Of a DNA stretch of 64,000 nt, positions 3,933 through 11,453 are shown piece by piece. The notes beneath the pieces are model-generated. The model did no database searches, had not been told where the DNA came from, and saw only the letters and a list, made by a program, of their open reading frames with translations. Position 1 is the first letter of the stretch. Every line of letters begins with the position of its first letter. Made by a program: the position numbers and the translations under genes. The DNA is from Pseudomonadota bacterium (lineage in GTDB: Bacteria > Myxococcota_A > UBA796 > GCA-2862545): assembly GCA_023954855.1 (NCBI GenBank), contig JAGSGY010000019.1:1-64000 (forward strand), given 5' to 3'.

Positions 3933-4253
3933 ATGGCACTGACTCTCACCGACGCGGCGCTCAATCGCGTCCGCGAGAAGCGCGAAACTCCCAACAAGTG
4001 GCTGCGCCTCGGCATTCGAGGCGGCGGCTGCTCGGGCTTTATGTACGCCATGGACTTCGTCGAAGAGCCCCAGGACAAGGACCGTCGCTTCGACTTCGAC
4101 GATGTGAAGGTCTGCGTCGACATCAAGTCGTACCTGTTCCTGACCCAGACGACGCTCGACTTCGAGGCCACGCTGATGCACACGGGCTTCGTGTTTCGAA
4201 ACCCGGATGCGGCCAAGACTTGCTCGTGCGGAGAGTCGTTCTCGCCCTTCTAG
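3933..4253 (+). CDS. Iron-sulfur cluster assembly protein, IscA/ErpA (HesB) family
   Basis: A 106-residue A-type Fe-S carrier. The conserved cysteines are present: one in 'GIRGGGCSGFMYAMDF' and two in the C-terminal '[12 protein letters not shown]' motif (CxC followed by G-x-S-F). The length is typical of IscA/ErpA/SufA. A strong GGAGG precedes the ATG. The protein accepts Fe-S clusters from the IscU/IscS system and passes them to apo-targets. IscA, SufA and ErpA cannot be distinguished here. Its TAG stop overlaps the trpA stop on the other strand: the palindrome CTAG at 4250-4253 supplies TAG to both genes. Confidence 0.9.
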   Translation: MALTLTDAALNRVREKRETPNKWLRLGIRGGGCSGFMYAMDFVEEPQDKDRRFDFDDVKVCVDIKSYLFLTQTTLDFEATLMHTGFVFRNPDAAKTCSCGESFSPF

Positions 4254-5011
4254 CCGTGTAGGCCGCGCAGCCAGGTCGCTCCGTCCTCACCGCGACCGAG
4301 GGCCTCGATGAATGCGCTTCCGACGATGGCGCCATCGGCGTGGCCCGTGAGCTCGTCGATCTGAGCAGCGCTGCGGATGCCAAAGCCGGCGCACACCGGC
4401 AGCGGGCTCACGGCTCGCACGCGGTCGAGCATCTCGGTGACCGAGCCTCCGCCCACCTTGCCGCCCGTCACACCGGTCTTGGTGACCGCGTAGACGAAGC
4501 CACGACTCTCTTTCGTGAGCATCTTCAGGCGCTCCGGTGGGGTCACCGGGGTCACGAGCTGAATCACCGCCAAGCCCGCCTCATCGGCCGACTCGCGAAG
4601 GATACTGCACTCCTCGAAGGGCAGGTCGGGGACGATGAAGCCCGAGACTCCGGCCTCTGCCGCGTCGCGAACGACCGCTTCGAAGCCGTAGCGCATCAGC
4701 GGGTTGAGGTAGGACATCAGCACCATGGGCGCCTTGTTGTCCACGCCGCGCAGGGTCTCGAGAATCCACTTCAGCGACACGCCATTCTTGAGCGCGATGT
4801 GGCTGCTGTGCTGGATGGTCACGCCATCGGCCATCGGGTCGGTGAACGGAACCCCGATCTCCATCGCATCGGCGACTTCAGACACGGACTCGACGAGCTC
4901 GGCAAAGCCGTCGAGGGTCGGGTAGCCGGACGTGAGGTACGGCATGATGGCGGGGCGTCCGGCCTTCTTCGGCGAACGAAGAGCGGCGGTCAGCTTGTCA
5001 GCGGCGGTCAT
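4250..5011 (-). CDS. trpA: Tryptophan synthase alpha subunit
   Basis: A 253-residue TIM-barrel subunit that cleaves indole-3-glycerol phosphate to indole and G3P. The catalytic Glu51 (in '[16 protein letters not shown]') and the '[13 protein letters not shown]' loop are present, together with '[11 protein letters not shown]', '[11 protein letters not shown]' and the phosphate loop '[12 protein letters not shown]'. The frame stays open upstream to 5179, but the alpha-subunit start is the ATG at 5011. It overlaps the trpB stop as ATGA, consistent with the coupling seen across the operon. It is the last gene of trpEGDCFBA and ends tail-to-tail with the iscA-like gene. Confidence 0.96.
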
Positions 5012-6222
5012 TTGCCCCCCATATCGATGGCTTCCAGCAAGATGGGAAGGTCCTTGTCGCCTCGGCCCGAGCAGCCAATGAGAATCACCGAACCCGGGTT
5101 CTTCTCGGCGTACCGACGGGCACCCGCGAAGGCGTGAGACGACTCGAGAGCCGGCAAGATGCCTTCGAGACGGCAGCACTGCTGCAGCGCGTCGAGCGCC
5201 TCAGCGTCGGTGACCGCCTCGTAGGTGGCGCGGGCGGTGTCGGCGAGCAGGGCGTGCTCGGGACCCACGCCCGGGTAGTCGAGGCCGGCCGAGATCGAGT
5301 GGGTCTCGATAATCTGCCCGTCGTCGTCTTGGATGAGCAGGCTGCGGCAGCCATGCAGCACGCCGGGGCTGCCGTAGGCGATGGTGGCGCTGTGCTCACC
5401 CAGACCGGTCCCGTGCCCACCTGCCTCGATGCCGAGAAGCGCCACGTCGGTGTCACCGACGAAGGGATGGAAGAGTCCGATGGCATTGCTGCCACCCCCC
5501 ACGCAAGCCACGGCCACGTCGGGAAGACGACCTGCAGACGCAAGCATCTGCGAGCGTGCCTCGCGGCCAAGAACAGCCTGGAGTTCGCGAACCAGCCACG
5601 GATACGGGTGCGGACCGACCGCAGATCCGAGCAGGTAGAAGGTGCCTTCCGGGTCGCTGACCCAGTCGCGCAGCGCCTCGTCGATCGCAGCGCGGAGTGT
5701 CTTGTCGCCGCTCTCGACCGGTCGCACCTCGGCACCGAGCAACTTCATCCGGTGCACGTTCGGCGCCTGTCGCGCGATGTCGATGGAGCCCATGTAGACG
5801 ATGCAGGGCAGTCCCACCCGAGCACAGGCCGCGGCAGAGGCAACGCCGTGCTGGCCCGCTCCGGTCTCGGCGATGATGCGCGTGGCACCCATGCGCTTCG
5901 CGAGCAGGGCCTGACCTAGGGCGTTGTTGATCTTGTGTGCGCCGGTGTGCGCGAGGTCTTCGCGCTTGAGCCACACATCGGCGCCCCAGGCCTCGGACAG
6001 GCGAGGAGCGTGGGTCAGCGGCGTCGGCCGGCCAACCCACGACGCGAGCTCAGCGTCGAGCGATGCCCGCCATTCCTTGTCGGCCAGAGCTTCCTTCGCT
6101 CCTGCCTCCAGGCGGTTGATCGCCGGCACGAGGGTTTCGGGGATGAAGCGTCCGCCAAACGTGCCAAACCGGCCGCGTCCGTCGGGAAGCTTTCCTGCAA
6201 TGAGTGCCGCCAGTGCGGTCAT
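5008..6222 (-). CDS. trpB: Tryptophan synthase beta subunit
   Basis: A 404-residue PLP enzyme that condenses indole and L-serine to tryptophan. The PLP lysine is Lys97 in '[17 protein letters not shown]'. '[14 protein letters not shown]' (the indole/PLP site) and the Gly-rich phosphate loop '[12 protein letters not shown]' are intact. '[14 protein letters not shown]' near the C-terminus is the TrpB1 signature, so this is the canonical TrpA partner and not the TrpB2 type. Its start overlaps the trpF stop and its stop overlaps the trpA start, both as ATGA. Confidence 0.97.
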
Positions 6223-6821
6223 GCGTTCTCCGTGGCGCGCACAGCGCCGATAAAGGCCCGGATTCGGGCGGGATCCTTGATGCCTCGCGACGCCTCGACG
6301 CCGCTGGATACGTCGACACCCTTGGGTCGAACGGTCTCAATCGCTTCGGTGACGTTCTCGGGGGTCAAGCCACCGGCGAGGATGATGGGCAGGTGCTCGC
6401 CGATCTCGCGAACCTCGTCCCAGTCAGCCGTGACGCCGGCACCACTCTGGGCGCCCTCGACGAGCAGCGTTCCGCGAAAGCCCTCATGCGTGTGGGCACC
6501 CGGAGGCGCGCGAACCACGCCATCATCACGGGTACAGGGCAGCGCGAAGGCTCCCTCGGGCAACAGCGCCTCGTAGGTAAACGCCTGCACCGCGTCGAAG
6601 CCGAGTCCGTCGAGAAGAATGGCGTCCATGGCCGCGTAGTGCTTGTAGACGGCGACCTTGATGACGCCCGGTCGCACTGCGGCAAGCAGCGTCTTGGCTT
6701 GCTCGGGGCTCACCTGCCGCACCGAGCCCTCGGCGAAGACCAGGCCAATGGCGTCCGCACCGGCATCGCAGGCCGCCTCGATGTCCTCGACGGTGGTCAG
6801 GCCACAGATCTTCACGAGCAT
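6219..6821 (-). CDS. trpF: Phosphoribosylanthranilate isomerase
   Basis: A 200-residue TIM barrel for the Amadori rearrangement of PRA to CdRP. The family start '[12 protein letters not shown]' (general base Cys), '[20 protein letters not shown]', the phosphate-binding '[10 protein letters not shown]' and '[20 protein letters not shown]' are present. It is a single-domain enzyme, encoded separately from trpC, unlike the fused TrpCF of enterics. The start at 6821 overlaps the 3' end of trpC by 10 bp and the stop overlaps trpB by 4 bp. Confidence 0.95.
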
Positions 6822-7621
6822 CGACCCTCCTCGAGCAGTGCTGACGCGAAGGCGCCAGGGTCGTCGGCCCGCATTAGCGCGGACCCCACGAGAGCGACGG
6901 TGTATCCCGCTCGGGCGAGTGGACCCGCCTCTTCAGGGGCCTCGACCCCACTCTCGGCAACCGCGGGAACGCCCTCGGGCAGCAAGCTCGCAAGCCGCAG
7001 CAGTCGTGCAGGCTCCACGGCGAGCGTCACCAGATTCCGGCTGTTGATGCCGACGAGAAGCGGGTCCGCGCCAGTCCACGCACTCACCGCCGCCGGACAG
7101 CGCGCGAGATCGGCCTCGTCAAAGGCCTCGAGCAGCACGAACAGACCACACTCCGCCGCCGCGCTCATGCAGTCGAACAGCACCTGATCGTCGAGCATCT
7201 TCGCGATCAACAGCACCCCACCCGCACCCGCAGCACGCGCCTCGAAGACCTGGTAGGGATCGACGAGGAAGTCCTTGCGCATGACCGGAATCGGGCAGAC
7301 CGCAGCAGCGGCGGCCAGGTGCGACAGATCGCCATCGAAGCGGTCCGGCTCAGTGAGCACAGACACCGCTGCAGCCCCTGCATCGGCGTAGAGCTTGGCC
7401 CGACGAGCAGCCTCGGCAGCGGGGTCCTTCGGCTTGGCAAGCTGACCCGAAGACGGCGCGCGGAGCTTGCACTCGGCGATGAGGTCGAAGCGGTCGAGCT
7501 GCAAGCGCGGAGCCGGTGCGGTGGCGAGGGCCCGGGTCCGAAGCGCCTCGAGCGACTCCCCTTCCCGCGCAGCCTCACAACGCGCACGGCTCGAGACCGC
7601 CATGTCGTCGAGAAGGCCCAT
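6812..7621 (-). CDS. trpC: Indole-3-glycerol phosphate synthase
   Basis: A 269-residue TIM barrel converting CdRP to indole-3-glycerol phosphate. Motifs: 'LIAECKLRAPSSG' (a variant of the usual EIKKASPSKG loop), 'AAAVSVLTEPDRFDGD', 'VMRKDFLVDPYQVFEARAAGAGGVLLI', 'VGINSRNLVTLAVE' and 'VAESGVEAPEEA'. The two catalytic lysines in the first and third motifs are kept. The ATG at 7621 shares one base with the trpD stop (TAATG). The other end overlaps trpF by 10 bp. Confidence 0.95.
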   Translation of the reverse strand: MGLLDDMAVSSRARCEAAREGESLEALRTRALATAPAPRLQLDRFDLIAECKLRAPSSGQLAKPKDPAAEAARRAKLYADAGAAAVSVLTEPDRFDGDLSHLAAAAAVCPIPVMRKDFLVDPYQVFEARAAGAGGVLLIAKMLDDQVLFDCMSAAAECGLFVLLEAFDEADLARCPAAVSAWTGADPLLVGINSRNLVTLAVEPARLLRLASLLPEGVPAVAESGVEAPEEAGPLARAGYTVALVGSALMRADDPGAFASALLEEGRCS

Positions 7622-8634
7622 TACAGCGCCTGGCTCTTGGCGGCGATGGCGTCGACCATGAACAGCGCGGAGCCGTCGGAGACCACGTCCCCAGCCCGTT
7701 CTGCGGCCTCACGACCGTCGAGGTTCTCGGCGAGCTCGAGCACGAGGGCGGTGTTCAGCACCACAGCGTCACGAATCGCGCCGAGCTGTCCACCGAAGAG
7801 CCGGCGCATGGCGGCAGCATTGTCCTCGGCGTCGCCGCCAGCGAGCTCGGCCTCGTCACAGCGGGCAATGCCGTAGTCGAGCGGGTCCACGACCTCGCGC
7901 TCCACAAAGCCATCCTGAACGCGGAAGCGCACGAAGGGCCCCATTGGCGTGGCCTCGTCCCAAGCGGGGGTTCCATGCACCACGTAGGCGCGCTCGAGCC
8001 CCGGGAACTTCGACAGCGCCTCGGCCATCAACTTGGCGGCCTCCTCGCTCCAGGCACCGATCAGCTGGAACGGTGGGCGAGCTGGGTTCGTCAGCGGTCC
8101 GAGCATGTTGAAGATCGAGCGCACTCCCATGCCGCGGCGCACCGGCATCACCGACTTCATGGCCGGGTGAAAGTGGGGTGCGAACAAGAAGGTCCAGCCA
8201 GTGGCATCGAGCAGCGACTCCGCCGCCTCAGCTGAGGCCGGAAAGCGAATGCCCAGGGCCTCAAGCACATCTGCCGAGCCCGACTTGGACGAGATCGAGC
8301 GATTGCCGTGCTTCACGACCCCAAGACCTGCAGCCGCGCAGGCAATCGAGGTCGCCGTCGACACGTTGAAGCTATGCGATCCGTCACCGCCGGTTCCGCA
8401 GGTATCGACGAGCACGAGGTCACCGCCCGCCTGCACGGGACGGGCCGCGTCGCGCATGCCGAGCGCAAAGCCACGCACCTCCTCGGCGGTCTCGCCCTTG
8501 ACCCGAAGCCCGCCGAGCAGCGCGCCCTTCCAGCCGTCTGGCACCTCGGGATCGGTGATGTACGCCAGCGCCTGACGCGCCTGCTCTTCAGAGAGCGACT
8601 TTCCAGAAAGAACCGAGTCGAGAAGCGCCTTCAT
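7621..8634 (-). CDS. trpD: Anthranilate phosphoribosyltransferase
   Basis: A 337-residue enzyme transferring phosphoribose from PRPP to anthranilate. The PRPP loop 'VDTCGTGGDGSHSFNVSTATSIACAAAG' with 'VVKHGNRSISSKSGSADVLEALG' is the class signature, and 'RRGMGVRSIFNMLGPLTNPA' is also typical. It is separate from trpG, unlike the enteric TrpGD fusion. Its ATG overlaps the trpG stop as ATGA, and its TAA overlaps the trpC ATG. Confidence 0.96.
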   Translation of the reverse strand: MKALLDSVLSGKSLSEEQARQALAYITDPEVPDGWKGALLGGLRVKGETAEEVRGFALGMRDAARPVQAGGDLVLVDTCGTGGDGSHSFNVSTATSIACAAAGLGVVKHGNRSISSKSGSADVLEALGIRFPASAEAAESLLDATGWTFLFAPHFHPAMKSVMPVRRGMGVRSIFNMLGPLTNPARPPFQLIGAWSEEAAKLMAEALSKFPGLERAYVVHGTPAWDEATPMGPFVRFRVQDGFVEREVVDPLDYGIARCDEAELAGGDAEDNAAAMRRLFGGQLGAIRDAVVLNTALVLELAENLDGREAAERAGDVVSDGSALFMVDAIAAKSQAL

Positions 8635-9233
8635 GGCATCTCCATCGCGAGGAAGTTGCCGAGCAGCGCATCGCCCTCGGGGGTCAGCACGCTCTCCGGG
8701 TGGAACTGCACGCCACAGGCGACCGTGTGCTTGTGACGCAGGCCCATCACCTCGCCCTCTTCGGTCCAGCTGGTCAGCTCAAGCGAGTCGGGAATGCGAT
8801 CTGGATCGGCCATCAGGCTGTGATAACGAGCGGCTTGGAAGGGGTTCGAGAGCCCCTTGTACAGCCCCTTTCCGTCGTGCTGGACCGGCGACGACTTGCC
8901 ATGCATGAGCCGGGGAGCGCGGTCGACGACCCCACCGAGCACCGTCGTGAGCGCCTGGTGGCCGAGACACACGCCGAGCAACGGCAACTCTCCGAGAAAG
9001 CGCTCGATCATCGCGCCAGACACTCCGGCATCTTCGGGACGACCGGGGCCGGGGCTAATACACAGGTGCGTCGGCTCGAGGGCGGCCGCCTCGGCGACGG
9101 TGATCTGGTCGTTGCGATGCACGACGACGTCGGCCCCGAGGACCAGGAAGGACTGCACCAAGTTGTAGGTGAACGAGTCGTAGTTGTCGATGAGCAGCAG
9201 GCGAACGCCGTCCGTCTTTGTGAAGCCCTGCAT
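8631..9233 (-). CDS. trpG: Anthranilate synthase glutaminase component
   Basis: A 200-residue class I glutamine amidotransferase supplying ammonia to TrpE. The N-terminal 'LLLIDNYDSFTYNLVQ', the oxyanion segment 'CISPGPGRPEDAG', the nucleophile Cys89 in 'LLGVCLGHQAL', and the His/Glu of 'GVQFHPESVLTPEGD' are all present. The ATG at 9233 overlaps the trpE TAA (TAATG), which implies coupled translation and 1:1 stoichiometry with TrpE. It could also serve PabB, as dual-use TrpG/PabA proteins do; I see no pabB here. Confidence 0.94.
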   Translation of the reverse strand: MQGFTKTDGVRLLLIDNYDSFTYNLVQSFLVLGADVVVHRNDQITVAEAAALEPTHLCISPGPGRPEDAGVSGAMIERFLGELPLLGVCLGHQALTTVLGGVVDRAPRLMHGKSSPVQHDGKGLYKGLSNPFQAARYHSLMADPDRIPDSLELTSWTEEGEVMGLRHKHTVACGVQFHPESVLTPEGDALLGNFLAMEMP

Positions 9234-10615
9234 TACAGCCCCTCCTCGGCAAGTGCGAGCGCGCGTCGCAGCGCAGCGCTCTTCGCGAGCACCTCGGCGT
9301 GCTCACTCTCGGGCACGCTGTCGGCAACGATTCCGGCACCCGCCTGGGCCCGGTAGGTTCCATCGCGCATGACCAACGTGCGAATCGTGATCGCCTGGTC
9401 CATGGCTTGGTTGTGGCCAAAGTAGCCCACGGTGCCCGAGTAGAGGCCTCGGCGCACAGGCTCGAGCTCGTCGATGATCTCCATCGCCCGCACCTTCGGC
9501 GCGCCAACCACAGTGCCTGCGGGGAAGGTCGCGGCAAACAGGTCGAACTGGTCGATGCCAGGCCGAAGCTTGCCCTCGACGCCGCTGACGATGTGCATCA
9601 CGTGGCTGTAGCGCTCGATGCTCCGATACGGGTCCACGTGGACCGAGCCGCCTTGCGCGACGCGACCGAGGTCATTGCGTGCGAGGTCCACGAGCATGAC
9701 GTGCTCGCTGGCCTCTTTGGGATCGGCGAGGAGCTCGCGCTCCATCTCGAGGTCGGAAGCCGGGGTCTCTCCGCGAGGACGCGTGCCCGCGATGGGACGC
9801 AGGGTCGCGACCTCGTCTTGCAGCCGAACGAGCGCCTCGGGCGAAGAGCCGATCACCTGGAGGTCACCGAGGTCGATGAACACCATGTACGGCGACGGGT
9901 TGAGCAAGCGGAGCGCCCGATAGACCTGGAAGGGATCGAGGTCGGTCTCGCCCTCGAAGCCAATCGAGAGCACCAGCTGGTAGACGTCGCCGGCGGCGAT
10001 GTACTCCTTGACCTTGTCGACCCCAGCGAGGAAGTCGGACTTCGACATCGAGGGGACGGCAGCGCCGTGTTTTCCGCCTTCCGAGACGCGGGGGACGCGG
10101 TAGCGGAGTGCATCGCGCACGGCGGCCTCGAGCTTGATGCGATCGGTCTCAGGTCCGTCGTGAAGGACAGCCACGCGCCGGGTCGCATGGTCGAACACCA
10201 GCATCGATCGAGGCGCCATCCACGCGCCCTCGGGATGCCCCGGAAGCGGTGCCGCGTTGTTCGGCAGCTTCTCAAAGCGGCGAACAATGTCGTAAGACGC
10301 CACGCCGACAAGCCCGCCCGCGAAGGGAAGACCGGCTGCCGGGCCCGGGCGAGGTGCATCAGAGAGTGCTGTGCGCAACGCCCCGAGCAGCGCGTCTTGG
10401 CCGAGCCCCACGGGGATGGCCTTGCCGTCGACGATGAGGTTCTCGCCCTCGAGGCGCACCGAGCGCACCTCGCCAAACCCAAGAAAGCTGTACCGAGCCA
10501 CCTGCTCGCCACCCACGACACTCTCGAGGAGGAAGCGGGGCGAGAACGGCGTCATCTTCAGCCACGCCGAGACGGGCGTGTCGAGGTCAGCGGCGATCGT
10601 GAACTGTGGTTGCAT
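9233..10615 (-). CDS. trpE: Anthranilate synthase component I
   Basis: A 460-residue chorismate-utilising enzyme and the committed step of tryptophan synthesis. The N-terminal 'FLLESVVGGEQVARYSFLG' contains the LLES element (residues 29-32) linked to tryptophan feedback inhibition. The catalytic domain has 'YQLVLSIGFEGE', 'GSSPEALVRL', 'PIAGTRPRGETPASD', 'EHVMLVDLARNDLGRV' and 'GAPKVRAMEIIDELEP'. The start ATG at 10615 has an AAGGA about 10 bp upstream. It is the first structural gene of the operon, 77 bp downstream of the leader peptide stop, and is probably under leader-peptide control. Confidence 0.96.
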   Translation of the reverse strand: MQPQFTIAADLDTPVSAWLKMTPFSPRFLLESVVGGEQVARYSFLGFGEVRSVRLEGENLIVDGKAIPVGLGQDALLGALRTALSDAPRPGPAAGLPFAGGLVGVASYDIVRRFEKLPNNAAPLPGHPEGAWMAPRSMLVFDHATRRVAVLHDGPETDRIKLEAAVRDALRYRVPRVSEGGKHGAAVPSMSKSDFLAGVDKVKEYIAAGDVYQLVLSIGFEGETDLDPFQVYRALRLLNPSPYMVFIDLGDLQVIGSSPEALVRLQDEVATLRPIAGTRPRGETPASDLEMERELLADPKEASEHVMLVDLARNDLGRVAQGGSVHVDPYRSIERYSHVMHIVSGVEGKLRPGIDQFDLFAATFPAGTVVGAPKVRAMEIIDELEPVRRGLYSGTVGYFGHNQAMDQAITIRTLVMRDGTYRAQAGAGIVADSVPESEHAEVLAKSAALRRALALAEEGL

Positions 10616-10708
10616 GAGAGGTCGTTCCTTGCGGGAAGCGGCCCCTTATGACCCTCTCCCCGGCGTGTCGCGTGGGGAGAACAAAGACGCAGCTACGCGG
10701 CTCTCCCC
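10616..10708 (-). promoter_or_regulatory. trp leader RNA with competing hairpins (attenuator)
   Basis: On the minus strand the octamer GGGGAGAG occurs twice: segment 2 at 10701-10708, inside the leader-peptide coding region, and segment 4 at 10654-10661. Between them segment 3 (10674-10681, TTCTCCCC) can pair with either, 7 bp perfect each way. Segment 4 plus its 3' flank (10650-10658) can instead pair, with one bulged base, with segment 5 (10616-10623, GACCTCTC) immediately before the trpE ATG. The 3:4 hairpin has no following U-run, so it does not look like an intrinsic terminator. The geometry (2:3 with 4:5, versus 3:4) fits control of trpE translation by ribosome stalling. The pairings are seen in sequence; the mechanism is inferred. 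Confidence 0.75.
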
Positions 10709-10752
10709 AAGGAGGGCCACCACCAACGAAGGGATGTGCGGTGCGTCGTCAT
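10693..10752 (-). CDS. trpL: trp operon leader peptide (19 aa, three tandem Trp codons)
   Basis: The frame from ATG at 10752 to TAG at 10693-10695 encodes MTTHRTSLRWWWPSLGRAA. Codons 10-12 are three consecutive TGG (10717-10725), which is very unlikely by chance directly upstream of trpE and is the hallmark of a tryptophan-sensing leader. The following codons 15-17 contain hairpin segment 2. There is no Shine-Dalgarno before the ATG, and a possible -10 ends 6 bp upstream, so the leader may be translated from a leaderless transcript. It lies between the gene ending at 10797 and trpE. Confidence 0.88.
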   Translation of the reverse strand: MTTHRTSLRWWWPSLGRAA

Positions 10753-10758
10753 GAGGCA

Positions 10759-10787
10759 AAAGTGCCCGTGCGGAACGTGGCTGTCAA
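10759..10787 (-). promoter_or_regulatory. Putative sigma-70-type promoter of the trp operon
   Basis: A perfect TTGACA (-35) lies at 10782-10787 on the minus strand. A weak CACTTT follows 17 bp later at 10759-10764, keeping the A and T at the two most conserved -10 positions. The predicted transcription start falls at or next to the trpL ATG (10752). It lies 10 bp past the stop of the upstream membrane-protein gene. Confidence 0.5.
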
Positions 10788-10796
10788 GAGGCCCGC

Positions 10797-11453
10797 TCAC
10801 ATGCCTCGGCAGATGCCCATCGACTCGCGACAGGTCACGCTGTGGGTGCCTCCGTCCTCGATGCGGATCTTGCCGGTAGTGACTGGCGTTCCGTCCGAGA
10901 AAGTCGCTTCGATGTCGTAGGTACCCGCCGGCACGCTCGCGGGAAGCTTGTAGCGCTTTCCGCTGCGGATCAGCGTGACCGAGGCTCCCGTCGCGGTGAC
11001 ATTCGGCGTCGAGCCGCCACGGCTCATGGTCGTTCCGGACGACGACGGCCTGGGGGCGGGCGCCGGAGCGGGCGAGGGTGCGGCAACCGGGGTCGGCGCC
11101 GGGGCAGGACTCGGAGCCGGCGAGGGACTCGGCTTGGGAGCGGGCGCAGGCCGTGGCGTGGGCTTCGCAGCCACCGCTTCCTCGACCGCCTCCTCGATGG
11201 CGGCTTCGATCTCGGCCTCATCGACGGTGCCCTCGAGCAAGTCGTCGATCGCAACAGCCTCTACAGCCTCGACAGCCGCAAGCTCGTCGGCCACGGCCTG
11301 CATCTTCTGGTCGAGCTGGTTGCTCGAGTACCAAAGGGCTCCGCCAGCGCCGACGCCACCGAGAAACAGCAGTCCGACGCCTCCCAGAAACAGAAAGGTC
11401 AGACAGCCAAACGCGTACAGGCATCCACGGCCCTTCTTCTTCTCTTCAGCCAC
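10797..11453 (-). CDS. Membrane-anchored protein with acidic helix, Pro/Ala linker and C-terminal beta domain
   Basis: I do not recognise a characterised family. The 218-residue protein has a basic N-terminus, one or two membrane segments (about 12-45), an acidic, probably coiled-coil stretch (46-92: 'AADELAAVEAVEAV...EEAVEEAV'), a Pro/Ala/Ser-rich linker (about 96-135) and a compact C-terminal domain (about 150-218) with 'VTLIRSGKRYKLPASVPAGTYDIEATFSDG' strands and two cysteines in 'TCRESMGICRGM'. The end domain resembles small beta domains at the C-termini of myxobacterial envelope proteins and kinases (inference). It may stand alone, because the trp promoter begins directly after it. Confidence 0.75.
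   Translation of the reverse strand: MAEEKKKGRGCLYAFGCLTFLFLGGVGLLFLGGVGAGGALWYSSNQLDQKMQAVADELAAVEAVEAVAIDDLLEGTVDEAEIEAAIEEAVEEAVAAKPTPRPAPAPKPSPSPAPSPAPAPTPVAAPSPAPAPAPRPSSSGTTMSRGGSTPNVTATGASVTLIRSGKRYKLPASVPAGTYDIEATFSDGTPVTTGKIRIEDGGTHSVTCRESMGICRGM

Follow-up and report, generated by a model that had tools for sequence, protein, structure and literature searches.

A putative tryptophan-responsive translational attenuator upstream of a trpEGDCFBA operon and its relatives with and without terminators

Leader reading frame, promoter and trp operon

The window, a stretch of 64,000 nucleotides from contig JAGSGY010000019.1 (assembly GCA_023954855.1), carries on its minus strand a trp operon in the order trpEGDCFBA, preceded by a short reading frame rich in tryptophan codons. 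The following features were located:

4250..9233, minus strand: trpG, trpD, trpC, trpF, trpB and trpA, with reading frames that overlap or abut
9233..10615, minus strand: trpE, encoding anthranilate synthase component I, at the head of the operon, with its ATG at 10615
10752-10693, minus strand: leader peptide reading frame upstream of trpE, MTTHRTSLRWWWPSLGRAA, 19 codons and a stop
10725-10717, minus strand: TGG TGG TGG, the three tandem Trp codons of the leader
10759..10787, minus strand: promoter-like element, TTGACA and a weak -10

The TIGR00564 match of trpE scored 475.6 bits, which lies under the 517.7-bit cut-off of that model, and the assignment therefore rests also on the operon context. 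Since the reading frames that follow overlap or abut, control of trpE translation could spread down the operon by coupling. The leader frame, which the original prediction had described as 19 codons with three consecutive TGG directly upstream of trpE, was confirmed, and its codons are ATG ACG ACG CAC CGC ACA TCC CTT CGT TGG TGG TGG CCC TCC TTG GGG AGA GCC GCG TAG. In the promoter-like element, TTGACA (10787-10782) is separated by a spacer of 17 nt from CACTTT (10764-10759), a -10 too weak to be picked up in a consensus promoter scan, which ends 6 nt upstream of the leader ATG. From this spacing, and with a -10 of such weakness, a 5' UTR of approximately 0 to 2 nt is predicted, and the transcript would probably start at, or adjoining, the leader AUG, making it leaderless or nearly so.

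Alternating RNA segments between the Trp codons and trpE

Downstream of the Trp codons the octamer GGGGAGAG is present twice on the minus strand (10708-10701 and 10661-10654), with a gap of 8 nt between the last TGG and the first copy, and UUCUCCCC at 10680-10673 (minus) is complementary to both copies. The stretch CCUCUC (10621-10616) adjoins the trpE ATG and is complementary to the GAGAGG of the second octamer copy. The duplicated octamer, its complement in the middle, the arm beside the trpE ATG and the missing U-run had all been predicted and are all present. New relative to that prediction are a short segment directly upstream of the first octamer (segment 0) and two arms, 10653-10633 and 10628-10608 (minus), that form a hairpin over the trpE ribosome binding site (RBS). 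Six segments can thus be listed:

10711..10716, minus strand: segment 0, CCCUCC; pairs with segment 1 and lies under a ribosome that has stalled at the Trp codons
10700..10709, minus strand: segment 1, UGGGGAGAGC; segment 2 of the original prediction; pairs with segment 0 or 2
10673..10682, minus strand: segment 2, GUUCUCCCCA; segment 3 of the original prediction; pairs with segment 1 or 3
10654..10661, minus strand: segment 3, GGGGAGAG; segment 4 of the original prediction; pairs with segment 2 or 4
10633..10653, minus strand: segment 4, GGUCAUAAGGGGCCGCUUCCC; anti-RBS arm, of which the core CUUCCC pairs with segment 3
10608..10628, minus strand: segment 5; trpE RBS, CCUCUC and AUG; closed by segment 4

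Read as a chain, the window leader runs CCCUCC, GGGGAGAG, UUCUCCCC, GGGGAG(AG), CUUCCC (part of a longer arm) and GGAA, the last being located inside the SD-like AAGGAA of segment 5. Mutually exclusive hairpins 3' of the Trp codons, a hallmark of classical attenuators, are accordingly found in this leader. Helix 0:1 is short and the weakest of the chain, and taken alone it is no better than expected from composition (p 0.39).

No U-run follows the hairpin at 10680-10654, the bases after it being GGUCAUAAGG, and a scan of 10000-11200 for intrinsic terminators found nothing. The U-run is likewise absent from all five trpE leaders of the family described below, none of which therefore ends in a classical terminator. 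Terminator usage in the lineage was judged from positions 1-60000 of the window alone, where 11 U-tract terminator-like sites were counted compared to approximately 26 in shuffles (three scans), and the lineage may rarely use canonical intrinsic terminators. This makes the missing U-run less telling, and it also offers a rationale for a translational output being preferred.

Leaders in related genomes

The comparison covered 71 genomes of the class. WWW leaders upstream of trpE were found in the window, in the sister species G001 (MTTSDRTCRWWWLP, stop) and in G019 (MNASRTIVRWWWTNPGVGSR, stop) and G020 (MTNSLAQRWWWWLSSVEMAA, stop), together with a WWRW version in G015. No such leader was found in eight further TrpE relatives from the family or the order. 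TTGACA starts 36-38 nt upstream of the leader ATG in all five family trpE leaders and a weak -10 ends 6-8 nt upstream of it, and from this layout all five transcripts are predicted to start no more than about two bases from the AUG.

The RNA segments of the four related leaders have other sequences with the same pairing possible, and the five-helix chain 0:1, 1:2, 2:3, 3:4, 4:5 is readable in each of the five. In G019, for instance, it consists of CCAACC, GGGGUUGG, CCGACCCC, GGGGGUC, GGCUCC(C) and GGAGCC, while the segment 0 picked by eye in G015 lies upstream of its Trp codons. The RBS hairpin 4:5 can form in all five leaders, and its inner pairing UUCC/GGAA in the window is replaced by CUCC/GGAG in G001, a U-A to C-G exchange in which the two pairings were matched by structure rather than by alignment column, as the loop lengths differ. 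The helix GAGAGG/CCUCUC, which had originally been proposed to close trpE, is not kept in G001, where ACCCU precedes the GTG start. The absence of the leader from the eight further TrpE relatives counts against the attenuator proposed below.

Helix chain compared with shuffled sequences

The global folding energy of the window leader is unremarkable (z -0.62), and the case therefore rests on the arrangement of the helices and on the relatives. Neither the global fold z-score nor RBS structure alone, measured against shuffles or leader-less relatives, was discriminating in such GC-rich sequence, and the structure around the window trpE RBS is ordinary for a sequence of that GC content. When the helix arms were shuffled for composition, Fisher p values over the five leaders were 0.004 for 0:1, 2e-6 for 1:2, 1e-5 for 2:3, 0.001 for 3:4 and 2e-7 for 4:5, values that are optimistic because the arms were picked by eye.

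An automatic chain search was given the Trp codons and the RBS only, no segments, and was run against dinucleotide shuffles. A five-helix chain was recovered with p 0.010 in the window and 0.005 in each of G001, G019 and G015. The search returned the by-eye segments in the window, G001 and G019, and in G015 the first two helices differed from the by-eye choice. G020 failed this strict contiguous-helix test, apparently because its helices have mismatches. None of the 4227 models of Rfam 15 gave a covariance match at gathering score in the window leader; the best was a sub-threshold match to whalefall-1 (20.2 bits, gathering 37) at 10651-10720 (minus), over the 0:1 hairpin, and whalefall-1 had no match in the relatives' leaders tested.

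Proposed mechanism and modelled opening of the trpE RBS

A tryptophan-responsive translational attenuator is the best explanation for the window leader and, in our judgement, a fairly probable one. It draws on the anatomy of the locus, its recurrence in five genomes, the complementarity of the segments and a modelled stall-dependent opening of the RBS, all within a set of only five predicted trpE leaders. Transcription would start at or beside the AUG of the WWW frame, and a ribosome would translate the (near-)leaderless message. If Trp-tRNA is ample, this ribosome would run to the stop codon, segment 1 being covered or left paired as 0:1; segments 2 and 3 would then pair, and segment 4 would be free to close trpE by pairing over its SD and start codon (4:5), whether the ribosome is still at the stop codon or has left. 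When Trp-tRNA is short, the ribosome would be expected to wait on the UGG codons with its front edge over segment 0 only. With segment 0 covered, 1:2 and 3:4 would form, segment 5 would be released and the RBS would be open, turning trpE on in Trp shortage. Both the RNA structures in the cell and the resulting change in protein amount are inferred. Two broader elements of the original prediction are retained in this scheme, namely a Trp-sensing leader peptide that lacks an intrinsic terminator, as supported by the WWW frame, the missing U-run and the empty terminator scan, and control most likely exerted on trpE translation initiation by the general ermC logic, for which the RBS coupling obtained in silico speaks.

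The coupling was modelled by removing the RNA through A-site + 11, refolding the remainder and computing the cost of opening trpE from -16 to +3. In a mask scan of the window leader with the RNA ending at +10, the RBS was easiest to open at offsets 40-44 (2.6-2.8 kcal/mol), which correspond to the end of a ribosome sitting on the Trp codons, and the cost jumped to 10.2 kcal/mol at offset 48, where segment 1 is covered. The scan had a similar shape in the other four family leaders with the same RNA end. Opening energies with the ribosome on the Trp codons and at the leader stop (RNA end +10), and the resulting stall ddG, were as follows, in kcal/mol:

Window: 3.7 and 11.1, ddG 7.3
G001: 9.6 and 15.8, ddG 6.2
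G019: 5.2 and 9.0, ddG 3.8
G020: 5.4 and 17.2, ddG 11.9
G015: 14.4 and 20.6, ddG 6.2

Stall-dependent opening in the window leader alone had p 0.017, and the summed ddG of the five leaders reached 35.3 kcal/mol, compared to -1.7 +/- 5.1 in shuffles (maximum 12.0 in 120; Fisher 6e-6). In G015 the RBS hairpin remains very stable with the ribosome stalled, at 14.4 kcal/mol. Refinement of the RBS-coupling model drew on these same five leaders, with RNA end points of +6, +10, +15, +20 and +45, and since +10 was chosen after seeing +20 and +45, its p value is to be read together with the others. With the RNA ending at +15 the summed ddG was 22.2 (p 3e-4) and the effect was lost for G015, and at +20 it was weaker still (combined p 0.026). 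The modelled switch is thus clearest when the RNA ends 6-15 nt past the start codon and fades with longer RNA, so the model suits nascent RNA at the moment when its start codon emerges, and less a long equilibrated RNA. An RBS hairpin undone by a stalled leader ribosome, the mark of a translational attenuator, was accordingly obtained in silico only.

Terminator-bearing relatives

Outside the family, the nearest TrpE proteins are those of MAGs labelled Gammaproteobacteria, Proteobacteria or Woeseia. Their leaders (L031-L035, L037-L040, L042-L046, L050) are Trp-rich and end in a U-tract terminator of the CCGGGATGGG-TTTTTT type, with segments such as CUCC / GGAGUGGG / CCCAUCUCCGG / CCGGGAUGGG; of the terminators tabulated for 14 relatives, 13 have five or more T and that of L045 has TCTTT. 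They resemble the family leaders in promoter-ATG layout (most have a similar TTGACA-ATG arrangement), in their Trp codons and in segments 0-3, but differ in ending in terminators and, mostly, in lacking a stall-coupled opening of the RBS. The mean ddG of the 14 terminator-bearing relatives was 1.3, corresponding to little switching on average (Mann-Whitney p 0.002). When the family leaders were searched with a profile built from the MAG leaders, four of the five were hit at the correct position and scored higher than every one of 200 shuffles (E 0.00045 to 0.062), and the G020 segments CCCAUCCCC and GGGGAUG are near the terminator stem of the MAG group, without its U-run. In a TrpE tree the MAGs group as a single clade (98), nested together with the family of the window in a larger one (100) whose inner branching order the tree does not settle.

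Because the related leaders of the nearest TrpE clade end in U-tract terminators, one type of attenuator, transcriptional or translational, appears to have been turned into the other. Whether a trp attenuator was in fact converted between transcription-terminating and translation-controlling forms within one homologous leader lineage is, to us, an evenly balanced question. Such a conversion would consist in the loss or gain of the U-tract and the addition of one more alternating helix pair (3:4, 4:5), and the extra pair would preserve the sign with which trpE responds. The TrpE tree is compatible with either direction, and it may be the MAG relatives' terminator form that is derived.

In the MAG leaders L034 and L038, the terminator is so near the trpE start that RBS accessibility changes (ddG 4.8 and 6.2), an arrangement that is plausible as an intermediate between the two output types.

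Alternative explanations

The window leader might instead attenuate transcription without a U-run, termination at plentiful Trp being brought about by the 2:3 hairpin or by Rho on leader RNA that is not translated, 1:2 serving as antiterminator and the RBS hairpin being incidental. The alternation of 1:2 and 2:3 is indeed the classical switch, the 2:3 hairpin occupies the terminator position of the MAG relatives, where related leaders have true terminators, and a lineage with so few U-tract sites in 60 kb may end transcription otherwise. We nevertheless regard this explanation as unlikely, since all five family leaders lack the U-run, and all five have a 3:4 / 4:5 layer beyond that of shuffles, for which plain termination would have no need. 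Control at both levels, in which the hairpins change translation initiation and the untranslated trp mRNA is then lost via Rho or RNA decay, is given a small probability. In its favour, blocked translation in bacteria usually leads to mRNA loss by these routes, and the terminator overlaps the trpE RBS in L034 and L038.

Slightly less probable still is the pairing order originally predicted, in which the stalled ribosome masks the first octamer (its segment 2, segment 1 here), 2:3 forms (its 3:4) and CCUCUC and the trpE start are freed, and in which 1:2 and 3:CCUCUC form and close trpE at ample Trp. The complementarities it invokes exist; the geometry disagrees, however, as with the usual ribosome edge (A-site first base + 11) at most one base of segment 1 is covered, whichever of the three Trp codons the ribosome occupies, and what it covers instead is CCCUCC of segment 0. 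This order was rejected on that geometry and because masking the first octamer closed the RBS in the mask scan, the opposite of what was predicted; its closing helix, moreover, is the one not kept in G001. That the leader peptide is vestigial, with pairings that arise by coincidence in GC-rich sequence, as the global fold z-score and the many relatives without a leader might suggest, is the most improbable explanation, given that the TTGACA, ATG and WWW spacing is kept across divergent genera and given the combined shuffle tests (helix arms, chain search, RBS opening).

Relation to known attenuators

Attenuation of trp operons is the textbook example of transcription termination under ribosome control. 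In ermC-type attenuators a ribosome stalled on the leader rearranges hairpins and frees the RBS of the next gene; stalling there is caused by an antibiotic and the nascent peptide and the helix chain is shorter, whereas the window leader would respond to empty Trp codons. Classical trp attenuators are known in proteobacteria and Actinobacteria, the latter having GC-rich terminators followed by poly-U (PMC1262725). The window leader is like those of E. coli trpL and the Corynebacterium and Streptomyces trp operons (PMC1262725) in its tandem Trp codons, short leader peptide, hairpins chosen by the stalled ribosome and place just upstream of trpE, and it differs in having no U-tract terminator and two further helices that link the switch to the trpE RBS. 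Translational T-boxes and terminator-less cys leaders have been reported (PMC1262725). In Sinorhizobium meliloti, the trpL leader transcript starts at the AUG of a Trp-rich sORF, as predicted in the window, but acts by transcription termination, yielding the sRNA rnTrpL (PMC7298713).

Mycobacteria have leaderless polycysteine sORFs that attenuate translation, according to accounts of Canestrari et al. 2020 given in other articles (PMC9031893, PMC13236596). As far as these accounts describe them, such sORFs resemble the window leader in being amino-acid-responsive, located at the 5' end and in control of downstream translation, and differ in responding to cysteine rather than Trp and in belonging to another phylum. 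Their characteristic stretch of codons specifying the regulated amino acid has its counterpart in the WWW of the trp leader. We know of no five-helix relay in them and of no tie to a terminator-type attenuator. In the literature searched, with most subscription journals outside it, no trp operon was found to be described as controlled by a translational attenuator of the Trp-codon type. If the present explanation is true, the sensing half of an attenuator keeps working while its output half is exchanged, an exchange already known for riboswitches. Its proposed setting is a GC-rich lineage with few U-tract terminators in the scanned region, and the odd number of helices needed for the correct sign is a simple, testable design rule.

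Further leader-like sequences in the class

In UBA796, which belongs to the same order (L011 / L041), a hairpin and a run of eight T lie right upstream of trpE, and a Trp-codon leader was not found upstream of that gene. A pattern search for further leaders in the 71 class genomes gave mostly matches that are reading frames of other genes. One extra match looked like a real leader, located in G006, another genome of the family (L141:1115-1291, G006:C222), behind TTGACA and before a stand-alone TrpB-like gene (TIGR01415). This WWW leader (MMTNLSARSFYWWWPNPLG, stop) gave no RBS switch in the stall model. It ends in a hairpin, GGGGGTCGTGA..TCACGACCCCC, with TCATCTATTTT after it, that may act as a terminator.
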